NCBI GenBank assembly: GCA_029259115.1
Contig: JAPDJO010000076.1
Coordinates: forward strand, 1 to 64,000
Origin: Thermoplasmatota archaeon
Lineage (GTDB): Archaea; Thermoplasmatota; E2; DHVEG-1; B18-G2
DNA length: 64,000 nt
Direction: 5' to 3'
In this document: positions 33,451 through 45,533 of the stretch, piece after piece
Position numbering within the stretch: the stretch's first letter is position 1
How the letters are laid out: every line of letters begins with the position of its first letter
Notes under the pieces: generated by a model
What the model saw: the letters and a program-made list of their open reading frames with translations, nothing else
Database searches by the model: none
What the model was told of the DNA's origin: nothing
Made by a program: the position numbers and the translations under genes

Positions 33451-35082
33451 ATGTCAGAGAAATATAGCGGAATATTATCAAGGAAAGAAAAGATAGCCAT
33501 GCTAATTGGACTATTTATTACTGTAATTTCTGTAGGAATTCAGATCTTAATATATACCTTTTCACACAACAATCAAACTCTTACAACTGAAGGTACTGTA
33601 CTCTTTATTACATCATATATAGGCATAGTAGTTGGATTTTTGATGGTTGTTAAAATAGTTGTAGGAAAACACCTCAATAGACTATCCTACATTGTGACAT
33701 CTTTCATGGTGGGTTGTTTTATAGGAGGATTAAGTGTTCTTATAGTGGCAGGATGGTCTAGACCATGGGTCATATACGGAGCATATCTCTATACCATATT
33801 GATATATGCACCGGCTATTCTCGTTACTCTCTCTGTAGTATCTGTTGCTACGTTGAAATTTTCCAATAAGGTATCTTTCATTGTATCCGTTTTTTCTGTA
33901 GTAGTTACCATTATCATATTGACTCTAATTTTAGTCCCTACTCTCTCACCAATTAGAACAGATAGGGAATGTATAACAGCCTTATCATTTTCTACTGATG
34001 GAAATAAGCTTTTATTGACGACAGGGGATTGTTATTCCAAACGTCTTTATATCGAAAAAGACGGGAAAAAGATGTATAGTGGAGTTCTACAGATATGGGA
34101 CATAGAAGAAAGAAAAAAGATACATGAGGAATTTCCAGGTGAGGATATATTATTTGGATATACTCTCTCCCCCTGCGGAAGATACTACGTAGTTGAGAAT
34201 ACCATCTACAATTCTACCACAGGTGAAATAGTCACAGAGATAGAGGGAGAGATATTGGATTGGTCAGAGGATGGTAAATATTTGGTGGCGAAAGATCCAG
34301 AAGTTTATGTATCCTCTTTTGGTTGGACATCGAAGATCCTGTTTCTTCAGATACCAAACTTTTCAATAGCTAAAGAGATAGAAATTCCAGAGATACATCC
34401 TGAAAGAGGTGATAAATTCAAATTATCTCCTGGAGAAAATTTTCTCTCTCTTTGGTATAATGAAGAGAGACAACTGATGGTATTTTCTATAGAAGAAAAT
34501 ACATCACTGTGGAAAAAATCGCTGGGAATAGAAGGTGAAAACTTATGGATACACTGGTCTACCGATGAGAAACTTCTGCAGATCATTAAGAGAAAAGGAA
34601 GTCTAGAAAACACCAGTTATAATGTCATAGTAATCAATGCTACTGATGGAAAAGAGATCCAAAACATCTCTCTATACGACGATCTAATCAAAGACGAAAA
34701 GAAAACTTACTTACTGGGGGCAACCTTTGGTAGGTTGTACTTTTGTACGAGCAAATCATACCTTGAGAAAGGCTTATTTTTCAATAGATGGGTATGTAAA
34801 CGTTACATCCTCATCTATAATCTTACCGGATTGAAACAAATCATTAATATAACCGGTACAGCAACCCGTATCTCTCTCAGCAAAGGACTGATTGCTGTCG
34901 GTTACGATAATGGTATCGTTGATATTTTTAATGAATCAACAGGTAAGTTGATTTTCAGCATAAAAACACCGGTCTATAACTATAAAGTGAGAATACCTGC
35001 ACCTGGTATACCTTTCATAATCATCGTTATCCTATTAGTCTATATCATAAAGAAGAAATGGAGGAGTTATGGCGATGCCTAA
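33451..35082 (+). CDS. Membrane protein with WD40-like beta-propeller
   Basis: Several N-terminal TM helices, then ITALSFSTDGNKLLLTTGD...LQIWDIEERKKIHEEFPGEDILFGYTLSPCGRYYVVENTIYNSTTGEIVTEI..., C-terminal TM. Confidence 0.65.
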   Translation: MSEKYSGILSRKEKIAMLIGLFITVISVGIQILIYTFSHNNQTLTTEGTVLFITSYIGIVVGFLMVVKIVVGKHLNRLSYIVTSFMVGCFIGGLSVLIVAGWSRPWVIYGAYLYTILIYAPAILVTLSVVSVATLKFSNKVSFIVSVFSVVVTIIILTLILVPTLSPIRTDRECITALSFSTDGNKLLLTTGDCYSKRLYIEKDGKKMYSGVLQIWDIEERKKIHEEFPGEDILFGYTLSPCGRYYVVENTIYNSTTGEIVTEIEGEILDWSEDGKYLVAKDPEVYVSSFGWTSKILFLQIPNFSIAKEIEIPEIHPERGDKFKLSPGENFLSLWYNEERQLMVFSIEENTSLWKKSLGIEGENLWIHWSTDEKLLQIIKRKGSLENTSYNVIVINATDGKEIQNISLYDDLIKDEKKTYLLGATFGRLYFCTSKSYLEKGLFFNRWVCKRYILIYNLTGLKQIINITGTATRISLSKGLIAVGYDNGIVDIFNESTGKLIFSIKTPVYNYKVRIPAPGIPFIIIVILLVYIIKKKWRSYGDA

Positions 35083-35698
35083 GAGAGATAACAAGATAGA
35101 GTTAGAAGAAATGAGATATGTGACTAGAGGACTGCTGAAGAATTCGTATTATATAATCATAGTTATAGCCGTAGTTTTTCTTATCCCATTGGTATTATCC
35201 TATCTGCAGAGCTTCCTCAGAGATCTAGGTATATCAAAAGATTTTGATCTATATATTTCGATATTACTCTACATCATTGCTGGAGTAATATCTGTAGAGT
35301 GCATAAGAAAGATGATATCAAACTCCCTCAGAGAGGTTCTAGATGATTACAGCATAAGAGGAATAACCTCATTCTTTAGGATAGTGGGTTATGTGATACT
35401 CCTAATAATTATAACCTCAGCGCAGCAGGGGAGCGTTGTGTTTGGCGCTACACTAGGAGGCTTTCTGGGATTACTCTTAGGTATGGCAAGCAAAGAGCTT
35501 ATAGGGAATGCGATATCAGGAATATTCGTGATAATAACGAAACCCTTCAGAATCGGTGATGAAGTAAATGTTGCAGGTGGTGAAGGAAAAGTAGTTGATA
35601 TAAAAATGATGTATACTGTAATAGAGAAAGAGGAACAAAAAATACTTGTTCCAAACTCGAAGATAATTGGTAACGTTATAAAGGTGAAGAGGCAATAA
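35069..35698 (+). CDS. MscS-family mechanosensitive channel (short)
   Basis: VVFGATLGGFLGLLLGMASKELIGNAISGIFVIITKPFRIGDEVNVAGGEGKVVDIKMMYTVIEKEEQKILVPNSKIIGNVI. Confidence 0.9.
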   Translation: MAMPKRDNKIELEEMRYVTRGLLKNSYYIIIVIAVVFLIPLVLSYLQSFLRDLGISKDFDLYISILLYIIAGVISVECIRKMISNSLREVLDDYSIRGITSFFRIVGYVILLIIITSAQQGSVVFGATLGGFLGLLLGMASKELIGNAISGIFVIITKPFRIGDEVNVAGGEGKVVDIKMMYTVIEKEEQKILVPNSKIIGNVIKVKRQ

Positions 35699-35699
35699 G

Positions 35700-37613
35700 A
35701 TGCAGATATCATCATTCGAAGTCCTAGCAATAGTGAGAGAACTTCAAGATCTAGTTGGAGCTTATATTGATAAGATATATCAGATCGGAAAAGACGAAAT
35801 ACTTCTGAGATTGAGAAAGAAAGGAATTGGTAAGATATACCTATTGATAAAAGCTGGAGGATTTCTGCTTAAAACAAGGAAAACATTCGAAACTCCAGAA
35901 AAACCAAGTATGTTTGCTATGATCTTGAGAAAATACTTGGATGATGGTAGAATCTCGAAGATTTATCAGTATGACTTTGATAGGATAGTTGTTATAGAGA
36001 TTGAAAAGAAAGGAGAATTGTATAGGGTAATATCAGAGCTTATACCCAACGGAAATATCGTTCTGGTTGATAATGAATGGAAGATAGTAATGCCAATAAG
36101 AGAGCAGACATGGTCACATAGAACCATTAAACCAAAGGAGTTGTATATCTTTCCACCATCAAAAAACAATCTCATCGAGATGGATGTGGAGAGTTTCTCG
36201 GAGATCATCAAAAAATCAGAGAAGGATCTGGTAAGAACTCTAGCAATAGATCTTGGACTTGGAGGAATATATGCTGAAGAAATTTGTTATCTATCGAATA
36301 TTGACAAGAATAAATCTACCAAAGAACTCACTGATGAAGAGATAAGGGATTTATTCAGATCAATGAGAACCATAATTGATACCATAGACAAAAAGGAGCC
36401 ATCCTCTGAGATAGTCAAGGAAGGTGACAAGATCATAGCTGTAACCCCCATCCATCTTAAGAAATTTGATGGTTATGAGATAACGAGGAAAAATTCGATA
36501 AGCGAAGCTCTCGAGGAGATTATTGATAAACTTGAGGAAATAGAAGGTAAGGATGAGGAGAAGGAAAGGATAGAGAGACAGATAGAACAGCAGAGGAAAG
36601 CGATAGAAGATCTTATGAGACGATCTGAAGAGAAGAAAAGAGAAGGAGATCTACTCTACATTCACATGAAAGAAGTGGACGATATAATAGAGAGATTGAG
36701 GAAAGCCTCAAAAGAGAAAGACAAAGAAAAATCAATCAGGGAAATAGAATCTCTAGATATAGTTGAGAGTGTAGATCTTCATGATGGGATTGTTAGACTC
36801 AGAATAGATGACAAAATCTTTGAGATAGACTTTAGGAAAAGTGCAGCAGAAAATGCAAACCTTGCATACAAATTAAGCAAGAAATTCAAAGAAAAGGCAG
36901 AGAGAGCAAAAGAAGCTTTGAAAGAAAGCGAAAAGAAGCTTAAAGAGAGGAAATTAGAGAAAAAGGAGAAGAAAGAGAGAGAATTCTGGTTCGAGAAATA
37001 CAGATGGTGTATATCTAGCGATGGTAACCTGATAATAGGTGGCAAAGATGCTAAAACAAATGAGAGAATAGTGAAGAAACACATGGAAGAAAGAGACATC
37101 TATGTCCATGCAGATATACATGGAGCACCAAGTTGTATACTTAAGTGTAGAGATATATATGGAAAAGAAAGAGAAATTACAGAAAAATCCATAGAAGAGG
37201 CATGTCAGTTTGCTGGAATTTACTCCAAAGCATGGAAGCAGTTTGGAGAGGTTATGGTTTATTGGGTTTACCCTGATCAAGTGAGTAAAACTCCGGAAAG
37301 TGGAGAGTTTTTACCAAAGGGTGCTTTTGTTATTAGGGGTAAAAGAAACTATGTTAGATGTAGAATGGAGATGGCAATAGGAGAGATTTCTATAGAAGGT
37401 ATAAAGAAAGTCATGGGGGGGCCTGTAGATTCAGTAAAAGCTAGAAGTGATAGATTTGTGGTGATACAACCTGGATATATTAAGAAAGAAAAATTTGCTA
37501 AATTACTCGCAGAAAAACTAGAAGTAACCCCTGATAAAGTATCGAAAGCACTTCCGCCAGGCGACGTGCAAGTTATAGAAGTTAAGGGATTGGACATAGA
37601 GGAATTAAGATGA
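35700..37613 (+). CDS. rqcH: NFACT / RqcH (Rqc2/NEMF) family protein
   Basis: SSFEVLAIVRELQDLVGAYIDKIYQ, coiled coil, NFACT-R domain WFEKYRWCISSDGNLIIGGKDAKTNERIVKKHMEERDIYVHADIHGAPSCI. Confidence 0.93.
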   Translation: MQISSFEVLAIVRELQDLVGAYIDKIYQIGKDEILLRLRKKGIGKIYLLIKAGGFLLKTRKTFETPEKPSMFAMILRKYLDDGRISKIYQYDFDRIVVIEIEKKGELYRVISELIPNGNIVLVDNEWKIVMPIREQTWSHRTIKPKELYIFPPSKNNLIEMDVESFSEIIKKSEKDLVRTLAIDLGLGGIYAEEICYLSNIDKNKSTKELTDEEIRDLFRSMRTIIDTIDKKEPSSEIVKEGDKIIAVTPIHLKKFDGYEITRKNSISEALEEIIDKLEEIEGKDEEKERIERQIEQQRKAIEDLMRRSEEKKREGDLLYIHMKEVDDIIERLRKASKEKDKEKSIREIESLDIVESVDLHDGIVRLRIDDKIFEIDFRKSAAENANLAYKLSKKFKEKAERAKEALKESEKKLKERKLEKKEKKEREFWFEKYRWCISSDGNLIIGGKDAKTNERIVKKHMEERDIYVHADIHGAPSCILKCRDIYGKEREITEKSIEEACQFAGIYSKAWKQFGEVMVYWVYPDQVSKTPESGEFLPKGAFVIRGKRNYVRCRMEMAIGEISIEGIKKVMGGPVDSVKARSDRFVVIQPGYIKKEKFAKLLAEKLEVTPDKVSKALPPGDVQVIEVKGLDIEELR

Positions 37614-38653
37614 GATTGGTCTTTAAGGATCTGAAAAAGGGGATTGTTAAATTAATTCCTGAGAACATGGATGATCTGTGGCATCTCTATCATATAATAG
37701 ATAAGGGAGATCTTGTGAAAGCATTAACATTTAGGACTGCTGAGCAGAAAGGAGATAAGATTAGAATAAAGAAGGCTGAAAAGAAGCCGATGGTATTAAC
37801 TATAAGAGTCGAAGACGTTGAATTCCATGACTTCTCAGATAGATTGAGGATACATGGGATAATAGAGGAGGGACCTCAAGATCTGGGATCTCATCATACC
37901 ATAAATCTGAGAGTTGGAGATTACAAAGAAGTAACTATAATCAAAGAAGAGTGGAAACCCTCGCATCTACAAAGGCTTGATGAAGCATTGAAATCTAGGG
38001 GTAAGAATGACATTATTGCTGTATCTTTGGATGATGAAGAAGCATGCATAGCTGTGATAAGGAATAGCGGTATCCAGATAGTTGCGGAAATCGAATCAGG
38101 AAAATCTGGAAAACTTTATGAGAGCAAGGATAGAGAAAAAGATTACTTTGCAAAGATAATAGATGTGATTAGGAACTTGGCAGAGGATTTACCTATACTA
38201 ATATCAGGTCCAGGATTTACAAAGGAAAGATTGGTATCGTATGGCAAAGAAAAGGAGCCAGAGATATTCAAAAGAGTTTTCATTTGCTCTACCGGGAATG
38301 CTGGTTTAAATGGTATATACGAAACAATAAGATCAGGAGCTGTAGATAGAATAGTTAGTAACAACAGGGTTATAAAGGAAACAAAACTCGTTGAAAGATT
38401 TATAGAAGAGTTAGCTAAGGATGGAGCGGTAGCATATGGTAAGGATGAAGTTATAGATGCACTCAACAGGGGAGCAGCATCTCATATACTCATGATAGAT
38501 AACATGGCAAGAACCAAGGAGGGTGAAGAAATTCTGAGTCTAGCAAGAGAGATGAGAAGCGACTTCACCATAATAAATTCAAAAATAGAGGCCGGAAAGA
38601 AACTAGAAGGATTTGGAGGGGTGGTGGCTTTCCTAAGATTTAAAATAGATTAG
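37610..38653 (+). CDS. pelA: mRNA surveillance protein pelota (Dom34)
   Basis: LIPENMDDLWHLYHIIDKGDLVKALTFRT, IRVEDVEFHDFSDRLRIHGIIEEGPQDLGSHHTINL; ATGA overlap with rqcH. Confidence 0.95.
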   Translation: MRLVFKDLKKGIVKLIPENMDDLWHLYHIIDKGDLVKALTFRTAEQKGDKIRIKKAEKKPMVLTIRVEDVEFHDFSDRLRIHGIIEEGPQDLGSHHTINLRVGDYKEVTIIKEEWKPSHLQRLDEALKSRGKNDIIAVSLDDEEACIAVIRNSGIQIVAEIESGKSGKLYESKDREKDYFAKIIDVIRNLAEDLPILISGPGFTKERLVSYGKEKEPEIFKRVFICSTGNAGLNGIYETIRSGAVDRIVSNNRVIKETKLVERFIEELAKDGAVAYGKDEVIDALNRGAASHILMIDNMARTKEGEEILSLAREMRSDFTIINSKIEAGKKLEGFGGVVAFLRFKID

Positions 38654-39396
38654 TGGAAACCTGGGTATGCGAAGATTGGATACATCCTTTCTCTTAGAGA
38701 CATTGCTTTCATCGCTGTCATCTCAGATGTTGAAGAAGATGCCGTCACAGACGATGTTCCAATCTCTGGTTCGTAATAGACATACTCTACTTCTATAGTA
38801 AAGTTATTACCTTTGTCAAGCAACCTCTTGAGGGGTCTGAATATCTTCTCCCCAACCTTTACACTGACATTTACTTTGAATGGTTGATCCTTCCACTTCT
38901 CACTGTAATAATCCTGTAACTTATCCAGAGCCTCGCTGGAGCTGTTAGCTTTGATTTCATCCACGTACGGGACCGGATTTATATTGTCAAAGACGATCTC
39001 TATGGTTCCATTTCCTACGCTTTCCTCGCTCTTTACTGTTCCGTCTGGCGCAGTTACCTCAAAAGTCAGGGTATCTAGACCTTTCTTTCTTAGAAGTCCA
39101 TACGTGTGATCGTCTTCCCATGTCAATATGAATCTGACACTCTTCAAGTTGTATTGAGAGATCGTAACGTTTGCGGAATATGGTATGTCCTTGAAGAGTT
39201 TGTCGTATGCAACCATGTCTGGATTATCTGGCGAAGCGTAGCCTGTTTTTTCTGTCCATGTAACAGCGTATGTCTTCACAGCCTCTGTTCTCTTTTCCTC
39301 TTCTTTTGGTACAGGTCTATATAAAAATATTCCTATTGCCGCTAGAACTATTATCACTACACCGATTATCACAATCAACTTGTCCGTGGACTTCAT
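38650..39396 (-). CDS. Membrane-anchored extracytoplasmic protein, unknown
   Basis: N-terminal anchor DKLIVIIGVVIIVLAAIGIFLYRP then beta-rich domain; no family recognised. Confidence 0.55.
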   Translation of the reverse strand: MKSTDKLIVIIGVVIIVLAAIGIFLYRPVPKEEEKRTEAVKTYAVTWTEKTGYASPDNPDMVAYDKLFKDIPYSANVTISQYNLKSVRFILTWEDDHTYGLLRKKGLDTLTFEVTAPDGTVKSEESVGNGTIEIVFDNINPVPYVDEIKANSSSEALDKLQDYYSEKWKDQPFKVNVSVKVGEKIFRPLKRLLDKGNNFTIEVEYVYYEPEIGTSSVTASSSTSEMTAMKAMSLRERMYPIFAYPGFH

Positions 39397-39729: not shown

Positions 39730-41406
39730 TCAACGGTCTAGAAAAGTTATCAATTGATTGAACTTAAATAATCGTAAAAAAAATTCTATGATGGAATTTA
39801 TCGAGTGGAGAATCTTCTCTATCCATTTCAGTAAAATAGACTTCTTTATTACTTTCACCTCAACCTTCTCGGACCTAACATATCCTTCCTTTTCCGCATA
39901 CACCTCATATACTCCCTTCTTGGAAATCTTCACCTCCACTGAACCATTCGAGTCAGTGGAGAAGGTGTATGAATCTATATGCACGGTCGCATTCTTGACA
40001 GGATTATTACTTTCATCCTTAACCGTTATCCTGAAAATCTCATTCATTTCCACTTCTTTCTTCTCTACAGATATCTTTAATGCGTGCGCCTCCCAAGTTT
40101 CAGCATATCCCCACAGAACCTCTCTATCATCTTCAGTGAGCCTACACTTATCACAACTCACCATTGGTAGTTCATAATCGACCCAATAGTGCCACCAGTC
40201 AGAATCTCCGTCTATGCTTTTGACGTAGAGAGCATCCCAGCTTGGATAGTAAAGAATTGTACAATCAAATCCGCCTTTCTCTGATGCCTCAACCAACGCC
40301 CCGAGAACGGATGGATAATGAATATGAAATTCCTCTGACTGGTTTGAACTAACATTTATTGCAACAACCGTTGTATCTCTAACGGTTACGATACCTTCCC
40401 ATATGGTTTCATACTTTCCTTCAATCCTTACATATCCCGTCCAAGTTTCAACTGGAGAAGAGTGGTATATCTTCACTGGATAGTACTTTCCTAGGAGAGC
40501 AGGTATCGCATAGGATGTCATCCACTCAGGATTTAGATCTAAAGTTTCATTCCATTTAAAACTACCATCATCATTCTGTAGGCTTAACAGATAATCTACC
40601 GGGCTCTTTCCATTCTTTATCCAATTATTGGGGTTCTCACCAGCGCAGCTTATAGCCATGATAGCCCATGATGTTGTCGCAGAATTTACTGCTCCCCAAG
40701 AGGAGAAACCTCCATTATCTGTCTGTCTCTCTCTTAAAAAATCCAAAGCTTTTTGTATGATGCTTGCACCTCTATCAATTCCACTAGCTAAGAGAGCCAT
40801 GATTGTAGCCGATGTTGAATCCACATCGCTACTTCCATTTATACTAACGCCCCACCCCCCATCTGCATTTTGATGCTCAATGATGTAGTTCCTAACGCTT
40901 CGTACAACAGGATCATCCTTTTCAACCCCACAAGATATTAGAGATATTATACCCCAAACATCATCGTTGAGCAAGCCCCTGATGCCTATCTGCTCACCAT
41001 CATAGAAGCTCTTTATCTTCTCGACAAAATCTACTCCTCCAAAATTCCTTGGATTCTCGTTGCATGCAACTATGGCGAGCGCATGCCTTTCCCAATCCGT
41101 TGCCCTTTCTGGGTCAAGACTTTCTATCGATCTCTCCAGGTAGTCGGGTATGTTTTCCATTTCCGCATTTGCAGAGCATAGGGCCATTGCGGCCCATGCG
41201 GTTGTCAATGGATCTCCTATCTCTCCATTCTCTTTCTGTCTCGATTTCAAGAAATTTATAGCCTTTAGGATCTCTTCGTCCGATGGATTTAACGGGAAGT
41301 GATTTGAGGTGAACACATCTCTTGATGTTGCGGGAGTTGCCGAGATTATGAGGCTAGGGATAATGATTAAGCATACGGAAACCATTGCAAAGAACCATCT
41401 CTTCAT
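39730..41406 (-). CDS. Secreted transcobalamin-like protein: alpha/alpha toroid repeats + DUF4430-like domain + PEGA/CarboxypepD_reg-like domain
   Basis: Prenyltransferase/toroid repeats (HQNADGGWGVSINGSSDVDSTSATIMALLAS, RQTDNGGFSSWGAVNSATTSWAIMAI, LQNDDGSFKWN), then PSVLGALVEASEKGGFDCTILYYPSWDALYVKSIDGDSDWWHYWVDYE; start placed at MKRWFFAMVSVCLI. Confidence 0.7.
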   Translation of the reverse strand: MKRWFFAMVSVCLIIIPSLIISATPATSRDVFTSNHFPLNPSDEEILKAINFLKSRQKENGEIGDPLTTAWAAMALCSANAEMENIPDYLERSIESLDPERATDWERHALAIVACNENPRNFGGVDFVEKIKSFYDGEQIGIRGLLNDDVWGIISLISCGVEKDDPVVRSVRNYIIEHQNADGGWGVSINGSSDVDSTSATIMALLASGIDRGASIIQKALDFLRERQTDNGGFSSWGAVNSATTSWAIMAISCAGENPNNWIKNGKSPVDYLLSLQNDDGSFKWNETLDLNPEWMTSYAIPALLGKYYPVKIYHSSPVETWTGYVRIEGKYETIWEGIVTVRDTTVVAINVSSNQSEEFHIHYPSVLGALVEASEKGGFDCTILYYPSWDALYVKSIDGDSDWWHYWVDYELPMVSCDKCRLTEDDREVLWGYAETWEAHALKISVEKKEVEMNEIFRITVKDESNNPVKNATVHIDSYTFSTDSNGSVEVKISKKGVYEVYAEKEGYVRSEKVEVKVIKKSILLKWIEKILHSINSIIEFFLRLFKFNQLITFLDR

Positions 41407-41476
41407 TCTATCACCATCTTTAAGAATAAGAGGGAAAGATTTAAGGATAACAAATTTGATAACGACTGTTGCAGAA

Positions 41477-41986
41477 ATGGATAACAAACTCTTTAAAGCA
41501 TTGAGCAGTAAAACCAGACTGGATATATTGCGGAAAATCATGGATAAGGAATATCATCTCTCAGAGCTTTCAAGAGAGATGGGAATATCGAAACCTGTTA
41601 TATCTAGGCATGTAAAGATACTGGAAGATGCGAACCTGATAAAGAGGAAAAAGATAGGAAATGTTCATGTTTTGAAGGCAAATATGGATGCGCTTGAAAA
41701 GGCCTTCGAACCATTCGTTGAGGAAAAAAGGATAAAGATTAAGGAAGGGAAGACGGTATTTGATATCCTGAAACAACTCCCAGAGATAGAGGTAAAGGAG
41801 CACGATGGAGACAGGTTCATCACCGCGGTTGATGGTGAGGAAGGTCTGTACATCTATGAGATCGATGGAGAAATACCTGATAGAGCAATAAACAGATATA
41901 AACTTGAAAGGTCAGCCTTACTACAACTCAAGAAATTAGTACCGATAACAAAGAAGAGGATAAGGGTGGAAATAGAGAAGGATTAG
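41477..41986 (+). CDS. ArsR-family winged-helix regulator with C-terminal ligand-like domain
   Basis: NKLFKALSSKTRLDILRKIMDKEYHLSELSREMGISKPVISRHVKILEDANLIKRKK; start placed at ATG 41477. Confidence 0.85.
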   Translation: MDNKLFKALSSKTRLDILRKIMDKEYHLSELSREMGISKPVISRHVKILEDANLIKRKKIGNVHVLKANMDALEKAFEPFVEEKRIKIKEGKTVFDILKQLPEIEVKEHDGDRFITAVDGEEGLYIYEIDGEIPDRAINRYKLERSALLQLKKLVPITKKRIRVEIEKD

Positions 41987-42606
41987 TGAATCAAGATTTT
42001 TTCGCTTAAGTTAGATAGGAAGCTAGGAATCTTGATCTCTATCTCATGCTCCTTGATATAAACAACTGGCAAGATGACAAATGTTATTGCCAAACTCATT
42101 GATAATAGATGCCATAAGGTAAAAGGTATAGCGAGGGTATAGCAGAGAATCAATCCTTTGATGGTATGAGGATACCACAGGAGCCAGCATCCAAAGTTGG
42201 TCCAGAGGTCATATAATAGTACGCCGGCTATGCCTGTGCCAAATATCATGGATTTTCTTTGCATGCAAAACATTCCCCTTGATTTTAAGGTATAGCTCAG
42301 CAGGGCGAGCATAGCAAATCCGGACCATGTGAACAGAAAGATCAGGTTGTTTCCTATGATTAGATCTGTGATGAGCATTGTAGATACGGGAACAAGAAGA
42401 GAATATCCTCTTCTATCTAAAAGAAAACCGCTCAGCATGGAGATGGTTGCTATCAGGAAGAAGAGATCCATCATCAAGAGAGGTTGCGTTATACCGTTAA
42501 GATTGATGAAAATATCTGGCGATGGTGGAAGAAACTTGCTTAAGCTCAACCTTCCAATTACTCCTGCAATTATCAAGGTTAACATCAGCCCTATCTTCTT
42601 ATCCAT
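41983..42606 (-). CDS. Multi-TM membrane protein, ECF S-component/DUF6580-like
   Basis: Hydrophobic throughout; LTLIIAGVIGRLSLSKFLPPSPDIFINL...YDLWTNFGCWLLWYPHTIKGLILCYTLAIPFTLWHLLS. Confidence 0.55.
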   Translation of the reverse strand: MDKKIGLMLTLIIAGVIGRLSLSKFLPPSPDIFINLNGITQPLLMMDLFFLIATISMLSGFLLDRRGYSLLVPVSTMLITDLIIGNNLIFLFTWSGFAMLALLSYTLKSRGMFCMQRKSMIFGTGIAGVLLYDLWTNFGCWLLWYPHTIKGLILCYTLAIPFTLWHLLSMSLAITFVILPVVYIKEHEIEIKIPSFLSNLSEKILIH

Positions 42607-43147
42607 CCTTTCCCTCCAAGATTTCTATCTTTGGTTCCTGTAATTTCCATTCGATTATATCCCCATCTCTCACCTTCTGCAGATCAACACCTACTGGTGC
42701 GTAATTACCGTTGATGTAATACTGCCAGAACTTATTAGCTTTTGGATCTTCCTCGGTTGAGTTTATCGAGTAAATGTAATGGCTCTTATACTGAGGAAAG
42801 TACTCTGCCTCAAAGGTTAACCCATATTCGTTTTTTGCCGCCAGCAGAACGTGGTAGGCCGTCGAATTCTTAGAATCTAAAGAGATATTAAACCTGTCTA
42901 TCCTTCCATCTCCGTAATCTATGATCAGAGAGACATTTATGGTCTCGTTTGATGGGAAGCTTTCAGGATACTCAAATACTATTACTCCCTTATCAATCAA
43001 TTTCAATATCCCTATACTCGAGAAAGCTACGATGGATATTCCGATTACCGTGATCAGCAGAATCCTCCTTGACACGCAATATCCAATGAGAGAAACATCC
43101 TTAAAATATAGGATTCTGATAACAATTGATACCCACTTAGATAACAA
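42599..43147 (-). CDS. Membrane-anchored DUF4430 (transcobalamin C-terminal-like) protein
   Basis: TAYHVLLAAKNEYGLTFEAEYFPQYKSHYIYSINSTEEDPKANKFWQYYINGNYAPVGVDLQKVRDGDIIEWKL; overlaps 41983-42606 by 8 nt; true start may be internal. Confidence 0.75.
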   Translation of the reverse strand: MLSKWVSIVIRILYFKDVSLIGYCVSRRILLITVIGISIVAFSSIGILKLIDKGVIVFEYPESFPSNETINVSLIIDYGDGRIDRFNISLDSKNSTAYHVLLAAKNEYGLTFEAEYFPQYKSHYIYSINSTEEDPKANKFWQYYINGNYAPVGVDLQKVRDGDIIEWKLQEPKIEILEGKDG

Positions 43148-43216: not shown

Positions 43217-44224
43217 CTAATCTATAACAATATTTATCTTTTCTCCACATTTCTTACATCTATCCTTCTCTAGACCTTTTACATTGGCATTGAATCCGTA
43301 TCTCTCGATAAGAAGATTTCCACAGCTTGGGCAATACGTATTTTCATAATCTCCATGAGGTACATTACCGAGATAGACAAATTTCAATCCCTTTTCTTTA
43401 GCAAGATCAAAAGCCTTCATCAAGGTTTCAAAAGGCGTAGGAGGCAGATCTAACATCTTATAGTGAGGATAAAATCTTGTAAAATGCACTGGGGTGTCTT
43501 CTCCTAGCTCATCAATAATCCATTCACAGAATTCTCCTATCTCTTTCATAGAATCATTTTTCGTTGGTATAATCAGATAGGTTATCTCAAGATGGATACC
43601 AAGCTCTTTAGATAAAACACAAGTATTTAACACAGGTTCAAGCCTTCCACCAGATATCTTTCTGTAAAAATCATCTCTGAAAGACTTGACATCTATATTT
43701 ATGCCATCAAGATATCTTCCTATTTCTCTGAAAGGATCTTCATTTATGAAACCATTGCTCACATATGTTATGTAAAGGCCGTCTTTCTTCGCTATTTTGG
43801 ATGCATCGAGAGTGAACTCATGCCATATAGTTGGCTCGTTGTATGTCCATGATATTCCTTTGCATCTATACTGTTTTGCTAGTCTTGTAGGTTCATCAAC
43901 CTCTAATTCTCTAAGATAGATATCTTCCGGATCTACCATAGAAATCGTGTAATTCTGACAGTGCTTACATGATAGATTACAGCCAGCTGTACCAAATGAA
44001 AGAGCATAGCTGCCTGGATAGAAATGATAGAGAGGCTTCTTCTCTATGGGGTCTACAGCTACAGAAGATGCGGATCCATAGATCAAAGTGTAAAGTTTTC
44101 CTCCTCTATTCTCTCTCACTCTACATATCCCTCTCTTTCCTTCGGGTATCAAGCATCTGTGGGGACAGAGCAAGCACCTGATCTTATCTCCGTCCCTCTC
44201 CCAAAATTTAGCCTCTCTTATCAT
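43217..44224 (-). CDS. amrS: AmmeMemoRadiSam system radical SAM enzyme
   Basis: IRCLLCPHRCLIPEGKRGICRVRENRGGKLYTLIYG, SFGTAGCNLSCKHCQNYTIS, SWTYNEPTIW; C-terminal CPSCGN...CKKCG. Confidence 0.92.
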   Translation of the reverse strand: MIREAKFWERDGDKIRCLLCPHRCLIPEGKRGICRVRENRGGKLYTLIYGSASSVAVDPIEKKPLYHFYPGSYALSFGTAGCNLSCKHCQNYTISMVDPEDIYLRELEVDEPTRLAKQYRCKGISWTYNEPTIWHEFTLDASKIAKKDGLYITYVSNGFINEDPFREIGRYLDGINIDVKSFRDDFYRKISGGRLEPVLNTCVLSKELGIHLEITYLIIPTKNDSMKEIGEFCEWIIDELGEDTPVHFTRFYPHYKMLDLPPTPFETLMKAFDLAKEKGLKFVYLGNVPHGDYENTYCPSCGNLLIERYGFNANVKGLEKDRCKKCGEKINIVID

Positions 44225-44258: not shown

Positions 44259-45533
44259 TTAATCCCCAAGAAACATTTCTCCTCTGTTGAAAGGATATTT
44301 GTGAGGATACATGTCATTCATCTGGGGTTGCATCCAGATAAAGTCCCTATATTCTTTTCTTATCATGTACTTAGCATAGTAGAAAGCCTCTTCAACAGAG
44401 ACCCTTCCATCTTTGAATATGTTAAGGTGAGATCTCTTTGCTACACCAAATAGTCCCTTCCTAAATCCATCTGCCTTTCCTGTTTTTAATCCTTCGAACC
44501 ATAGTTGAGTAAAGAGAGGACCGGATACATTACTTGCATAGCCAATAGAGAACTTACTCTCGCCTGTTATAACTATTCTACCATCTTTCGGGATATTAGA
44601 TCTTAGAAGAGAAGGTACATTAAAGATGATCCTGTTTGCAAATCCTCCACTATAACAAGAATCCACTATCAGACATAACTTTGCTTTTAATCCTTCTAAA
44701 AGCTCACCCAACTCTTTATCTTGTATAGTGCCATCCCATAGCACCACTTCACTTCTTTCCAAAATCTTGCCACCCGTAATCTTTTTATCTGGATCTCCAA
44801 CACCATGACCAGATATCCATATAAAAACCTCGCTATCGTTGTACTTGTTTGCTTCATCCTTTATCCTCTTTATAGATGATATAAGATAATCCTCTGTTGC
44901 TGGGCCGTACGATACATAATCTATCTTATCGTTTCTCTCTTGTAAAGTTGAGATCCTTTTCCCCTCTCCATTTTTGTCTCTTATCCATCCATCATCGAAC
45001 AGTATGGTAATATGACTTGCAGGATAACCCAAATCAGAAATGAAATATCTAGCCATATCTTCAGCGAGTTCGAGCATTCCATTTCCAAGTTTTATCTCAA
45101 TATCTTCGACATTCGCTGCTGATACAAATAAAGCCCATCTGTGGATATTATCTGCGATTTCATTCTCAACTAGAATCTTCAATTTTACAATGTCTGAATA
45201 ATCGGTACCATCCCATGCCCTCGCATAAATACTGTGATAACCGTTCTCTAAATCCTTGGTATCTATCGTAAAACTCCAATTGTATGTACCATCGGTTACA
45301 TCCCAAGAGCTATCATCTATCTTTATCTCTACAGATTTTACATCACCATCGAGATCTTCAGACCTCCCAGTAATGGTTAGTATGCCATAGACTTTATCTC
45401 CATTCCTAGGATAATCGATGTAGACTATAGGCTTTTCATTAGCCTTTACGGGAATATTTCTCATGGATAGAGTTACCAATATGATAGCTACAGCAATCAA
45501 AATTGATACTACGATTATACCTTTGAATCTCAT
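44259..45533 (-). CDS. Secreted caspase/legumain-like (clan CD, C13/C14-type) protease with N-terminal Ig-like domain
   Basis: Ig-like YPRNGDKVYGILTITGRSEDLDGDVKSVEIKID...; His in VFIWISGHGVGDP; Cys in LIVDSCYSGGFANR. Confidence 0.8.
   Translation of the reverse strand: MRFKGIIVVSILIAVAIILVTLSMRNIPVKANEKPIVYIDYPRNGDKVYGILTITGRSEDLDGDVKSVEIKIDDSSWDVTDGTYNWSFTIDTKDLENGYHSIYARAWDGTDYSDIVKLKILVENEIADNIHRWALFVSAANVEDIEIKLGNGMLELAEDMARYFISDLGYPASHITILFDDGWIRDKNGEGKRISTLQERNDKIDYVSYGPATEDYLISSIKRIKDEANKYNDSEVFIWISGHGVGDPDKKITGGKILERSEVVLWDGTIQDKELGELLEGLKAKLCLIVDSCYSGGFANRIIFNVPSLLRSNIPKDGRIVITGESKFSIGYASNVSGPLFTQLWFEGLKTGKADGFRKGLFGVAKRSHLNIFKDGRVSVEEAFYYAKYMIRKEYRDFIWMQPQMNDMYPHKYPFNRGEMFLGD

Follow-up and report, generated by a model that had tools for sequence, protein, structure and literature searches.

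A 64-kb stretch of a Thermoplasmatota genome (contig JAPDJO010000076.1, positions 1 to 64,000; hereafter the window) carries a four-gene cassette that encodes a transcobalamin-like binder, a membrane-anchored protein consisting of a solo DUF4430/SLBB domain, a DUF6580 membrane protein and a one-component ArsR–DUF4430 regulator. The cassette is probably a corrinoid (vitamin B12) scavenging unit, a reading in which we infer ligand binding, transport and the direction of regulation.

Organization of the cassette

Domains were assigned by Pfam profile searches of the window proteins and by a profile search of the genome DNA. The solo DUF4430 gene (42599–43075), the DUF6580 gene (41983–42606) and the toroid–DUF4430 binder gene (39730–41406) follow one another on the minus strand, the first two sharing 8 bp, and the regulator gene (41477–41986, plus strand) lies opposite them between the DUF6580 and binder genes. 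All four are where a first-pass annotation of this DNA had placed them, including the overlap between the gene with multiple transmembrane segments and the solo DUF4430 gene. The regulator ATG at 41477 agrees with the starts of homologues. The solo DUF4430 gene, for which codons were also checked, probably starts at GTG 43075 rather than at TTG 43147: homologues begin at the former, and the two codons are separated by a predicted operator. A 248-aa gene (38650–39396) and the genes at 33451–38653 were rejected as cassette members, as they show no shared conservation with it. No cobalamin riboswitch was found within the window.

Fold of the binder

The 558-aa binder comprises a signal peptide, an alpha/alpha toroid (residues ~44–305), a DUF4430/SLBB domain (~322–430), an Ig-like/CarboxypepD_reg domain (~446–520) and a C-terminal hydrophobic or amphipathic helix. 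Both the toroid (SQHop_cyclase_C, 1.1e-16) and the DUF4430 domain that the first-pass annotation read in this protein are matched, and the Ig-like domain, which it left unmentioned, is additionally found by Pfam. The DUF4430 match is slightly below the Pfam cut-off at the protein level (1.9e-4) and above it in the genome search (23.9 bits), and profile–profile comparison with the solo DUF4430 family gives 5.7e-9.

An AlphaFold2 (AF2) model of the binder, built from 11 related sequences (predicted local distance difference test score (pLDDT) 84.7), was compared against the whole PDB. Its eight top-ranked matches are structures of transcobalamin, intrinsic factor–cobalamin and haptocorrin–cyanocobalamin (E 1e-9 to 1e-8), in alignments of 425–454 columns that span both domains, which bears out the earlier suggestion of a transcobalamin/intrinsic-factor two-domain plan. 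Squalene-hopene cyclases and farnesyltransferases rank lower and align with the toroid only. The overall root-mean-square deviation between the model and the transcobalamin-type structures is ~22 Å, which we read as the domains being differently oriented in the unliganded binder model. The alignment of binder relatives shows a conserved Trp in a YYPSWDA hairpin after the SLBB helix. In transcobalamin the hairpin at this place touches the cobalamin base (Burroughs et al. 2007, PMC1796856), making the Trp a lead for a candidate corrinoid contact.

The membrane components

The product of 41983–42606 matches DUF6580 (2.7e-23). Its AF2 model, made from nine sequences (pLDDT 75), has RibU, FolT and BtuM with bound cyanocobalamin (8c7p) as best fold matches (probability 0.77–0.92, E > 1); with BioY included, the probabilities extend down to 0.33. 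A six-helix S-component fold of the kind found in energy-coupling factor (ECF) transporters is therefore likely but not proven, in keeping with the first-pass description of an S-component-like protein, albeit at weak E-values; the protein would be the putative translocating subunit. The Cys of its TNFGCW motif varies among DUF6580 relatives.

The adjoining membrane-anchored protein matches DUF4430 at 5.2e-15, and no plasmid homologues of it were found. Some relatives have a single polypeptide that contains both DUF6580 and DUF4430, which supports a physical partnership between the two. The fused protein (loci L072, L084 and L171–L180) is ~350 aa long, and in several genomes its gene stands immediately 3′ of one for an HflX-like GTPase, which we took to be an incidental neighbour; the operator motif described below is absent there. 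Another DUF4430 fragment, truncated at a contig end, occurs in the cassette's own genome beside an arginyl-tRNA synthetase-like gene (L004; C29:3-395).

Conservation and genomic context of the regulator

The regulator has the ArsR helix-turn-helix (HTH) domain expected from the first-pass annotation (1.3e-12; HTH_metalloreg, 1e-16) together with a C-terminal DUF4430 domain that had been overlooked (residues 93–146; 2.2e-6 in Pfam). The latter was confirmed in the DNA-level search and matches the solo DUF4430 proteins in profile–profile comparison (3.6e-5).

A search of the phylum, later extended to 84,980 collected species genomes, identified 44 loci with an ArsR–DUF4430 relative, archaeal almost throughout. 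At about a dozen Thermoplasmata loci the regulator adjoins toroid, solo DUF4430 and/or DUF6580 genes, and the recurrence of the four-gene cassette across many Thermoplasmata genera, with conservation in ~10 relatives, is beyond chance. The regulator also adjoins or neighbours a toroid or a DUF4430 gene in a Methanocellales metagenome-assembled genome (MAG) and in MAGs labelled Diapherotrites, Falkowbacteria and Nanoarchaeota. The similar cassettes in Diapherotrites- and Falkowbacteria-labelled MAGs (L125 and L126), in the first of which DUF4430 is N-terminal to the toroid, suggest transfer into tiny-genome lineages, or misbinning.

Orthologues of the regulator occur beside genes for corrinoid synthesis and cobalt transport. 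One is the first gene of a run encoding a CbiT-like methyltransferase, a tetrapyrrole methylase, CbiG, CbiC, CbiD and CbiX, opposite HemA/HemL. Another is flanked on both sides by CbiM genes, three are divergent from CbtA in Methanoperedens, and two loci have the regulator beside a tetrapyrrole methylase (TP_methylase) gene. Within the cassette clade, one relative has methylmalonyl-CoA mutase and MeaB genes close to the cassette. These associations with cbi, CbiM, CbtA, tetrapyrrole methylase and mutase genes point to a corrinoid ligand, which independently strengthens the case for the ligand proposed in the first-pass annotation. The corrinoid- or cobalt-linked loci are spread over several separate branches of the tree.

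Two further contexts were observed. In Hydrothermarchaeota (L115, L119 and L120) the neighbourhood of ArsR–DUF4430 includes genes for an AsnC regulator and for an anaerobic ribonucleotide reductase (NRDD); these were typed in L115 and assigned by gene layout in the other two. NRDD is a B12-independent enzyme, and these loci might reflect control of an alternative enzyme by B12. In alkane-oxidizing archaea (L108 and L109) the regulator is divergent from a DUF2162 predicted transporter, which may carry cobalt or a corrinoid; L109 has a glutamine amidotransferase gene on the other side.

Corrinoid requirement of the host

The host genome is a 1.40-Mb MAG (98.7% complete, 5.5% contamination). It encodes methylmalonyl-CoA mutase (3e-244), on a contig other than that of the cassette, and the adenosyltransferase CobA (1e-52), and a B12-binding radical SAM enzyme is encoded on the cassette contig itself. 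The adenosyltransferase PduO is absent from the host. CbiD is absent from all 29 tested members of the host order, the host included, and the host's only match to CobS is sub-threshold and not credible. The first-pass annotation had proposed looking for EcfT, and the host genome has no match to the CbiQ/EcfT family (PF02361). Neither the host nor the cassette genomes have a BtuC-type FecCD permease above the cut-off (best host match 2.6e-6, sub-threshold), and none of the genomes with strong BtuC matches (G157, G111 and G008) carries the binder cassette. With CbiD, CobS, CbiQ/EcfT and a full-score BtuC all missing, the cassette is the only visible corrinoid route in this genome, and in the absence of EcfT any uptake by the cassette would work without a recognizable ECF module.

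Predicted operators

A 16-bp palindrome with the consensus GATAACGATTGTTATC precedes the regulator in most loci, including those of Methanoperedens and the tiny-genome MAGs. A position weight matrix (PWM) made from 19 other loci, with the window excluded, was scored at every position of the window. The best site, GATAACAATTGATACC (43118–43133, 16.8 bits), is at the promoter of the solo DUF4430–DUF6580 operon, ~50 bp upstream of it, and relatives have the site 50–54 bp before the solo gene. The second-best, GATAACGACTGTTGCA (41458–41473, 12.5 bits), is directly before the regulator ATG. It falls in the divergent regulator/binder promoter region (41407–41476), which also holds a TATA-like element, GATTTAAG, a second GATAAC half-site and the element AAAGATTTAAA, kept in relatives. 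These scores are unexceptional for 64 kb, as the best site of random windows averages 12.8 bits, with a maximum of 19.9 in 100, and the weight of the operator prediction rests on the positions of the sites rather than on their scores. Homology by itself would lead one to expect the 41458–41473 site in part; the 43118–43133 site is independent evidence.

For the regulator gene, the operator follows the TATA-like box and precedes the start codon; for both target genes it is upstream of the TATA-like box. This placement makes autorepression, together with repression or activation of the targets, possible.

Proposed mechanism and alternatives

In the mechanism that we propose, the secreted toroid–SLBB protein would capture a corrinoid between its two domains in the manner of transcobalamin. 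The anchored solo SLBB protein would hand the corrinoid to the DUF6580 protein, or cap it, and the DUF6580 protein would move it across the membrane without a recognizable ECF module, as is thought for BtuM. Inside the cell the ArsR–SLBB regulator would sense corrinoid through a domain of the receptors' own family and bind GATAAC-N4-GTTATC-type operators at both cassette promoters, with cassette expression rising under corrinoid scarcity. More broadly, and with somewhat less than even confidence, we suggest that BtuFCD is replaced, in those Thermoplasmata that are corrin auxotrophs, by a transcobalamin-like protein at the surface and DUF6580 as a solitary S-component. In the same tentative proposal the ArsR–SLBB protein, a corrinoid sensor from the domain family of the receptors, would be an archaeal counterpart of the B12 riboswitch. 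Acting at one conserved palindrome, it would control the uptake of B12, the uptake of cobalt or cbi synthesis in several archaeal lineages.

Several observations weigh against corrinoid scavenging and its proposed control. The binder has no sequence match to Pfam Cobalamin_bind or to PDB transcobalamin chains in Pfam and sequence/profile searches, and by sequence its toroid is nearest to squalene-hopene cyclase repeats. The fold matches of the DUF6580 model to RibU, FolT, BtuM and BioY all have E > 1. About 17 of the 41 regulator loci, those of Hydrothermarchaeota among them, have no evident cobalt or B12 neighbour, and the one bacterial toroid–DUF4430 locus that was checked lacks a cobalamin riboswitch. 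The host's status as a MAG puts some doubt on the gene absences and on the off-contig mutase. Genome-wide, the operator motif shows no enrichment (38 sites, against 39 in the control), and it is absent at DUF6580 genes unlinked to the regulator. On these last two results we rejected a global regulon, and the regulon instead looks local.

The strongest alternative, to which we assign a minor but real share of the probability, is that the cassette scavenges another cofactor or small molecule (another tetrapyrrole, for example haem or F430, or an unrelated nutrient) bound by the SLBB domains. SLBB domains bind varied ligands, as a referee of an earlier survey warned (Burroughs et al. 2007, PMC1796856), and this alternative would accommodate both the regulator loci without cobalt or B12 neighbours and a DUF6580 fold closer to RibU and FolT than to BtuM. 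Set against it are the location of regulator orthologues beside cbi, CbiM and CbtA genes, the lead of the transcobalamin, intrinsic factor and haptocorrin structures among the binder fold matches, and the host's need for B12 together with its lack of any second visible importer.

It is improbable that ArsR–DUF4430 is instead a cobalt sensor in a cassette that handles cobalt or a cobalt complex. The ArsR family does include metalloregulators, in line with the HTH_metalloreg match, and cobalt transporters adjoin some regulator orthologues, but the sensor domain is DUF4430, with no known metal site. Moreover, the host order lacks CbiD and would therefore not build cobalt into corrin, no recognized cobalt transporter is part of the cassette, and one regulator orthologue heads a cbi operon. 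We give very little credence to the toroid protein being a terpene/squalene cyclase-like enzyme or a complement-like adhesin that clusters with DUF6580 incidentally: squalene-hopene cyclases are its best sequence matches, but it has no DxDD motif of class II terpene/squalene cyclases, carries a signal peptide and DUF4430/Ig domains and belongs to a conserved cassette, and its fold matches, which the first-pass annotation had warned might be confined to terpene cyclase or complement-like folds, place transcobalamin, intrinsic factor and haptocorrin ahead of terpene cyclases.

Other genes in the window

Beyond the cassette, a minus-strand gene at 44259–45533 encodes a surface protein with a bacterial Ig domain and a weak caspase-like Peptidase_C14 match, and adjoins a gene for the radical SAM protein AmrS (43217–44224). 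The AmrS and C14 pair likewise adjoins solo DUF4430–DUF6580 genes in a relative (L082/L175). On the other side, at 35700–38653 (plus strand), a NEMF/RqcH-like gene overlaps a pelota gene, the former recognized by reading of the sequence and the latter by profile match; the two possibly form a ribosome-rescue operon.

Comparison with known systems

Toroid–SLBB and ArsR–SLBB architectures have been described before, with B12 scavenging and a B12-responsive one-component regulator proposed, the latter with a Methanosarcina example (Burroughs et al. 2007, PMC1796856). The same study noted operons encoding a further SLBB protein that is extracellular, tied bacterial SLBB proteins to CbiO/CbiQ (ECF) genes, and pointed out that archaea with SLBB proteins are often B12 makers and might scavenge something else. 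The system analysed here differs in being one cassette with DUF6580, no CbiQ and a conserved operator, in a host unable to make corrin. Our search of the open-access literature, which did not extend to subscription papers, turned up nothing on DUF6580 and, after that study, nothing on what DUF4430 does in archaea. What looks new is the combination of all parts in one archaeal unit: DUF6580 without EcfT, a corrin auxotroph, a shared operator and the corrinoid-gene context of the regulator.

DUF6580 resembles BtuM in its likely, S-component-like fold and in its context, a B12 auxotroph without EcfT, whereas DUF6580 belongs to another family and is paired with dedicated extracellular binders, and BtuM has a Cys axial ligand (PMC6072759). 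ECF-CbrT of Lactobacillus delbrueckii, like the route proposed here, is an S-component route for B12 in an auxotroph without BtuCDF, but CbrT requires an ECF module (PMC5997447) and no EcfT was found in the cassette host. The ATP-binding cassette (ABC) importer BtuFCD performs the task proposed for the cassette; the host and the other cassette genomes have no full-score BtuC-type permease.

Transcobalamin, intrinsic factor and haptocorrin share with the binder an N-terminal alpha/alpha toroid and a C-terminal SLBB (DUF4430) domain, and are its best PDB fold matches (425–459 columns); the binder differs from them in lacking a detectable sequence match and in having an extra Ig-like domain and a possible membrane anchor. 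We propose by analogy that the cassette works like transcobalamin plus BtuM, and claim no membership of the animal family. Such a unit is a possible answer to how B12-needing archaea without synthesis or known importers obtain and sense B12. If correct, the proposal would assign a role to DUF6580 and to the DUF4430 proteins of archaea, and would link the fold of animal transcobalamin and intrinsic factor to uptake in microbes by a system whose receptors and sensor have matching domains.
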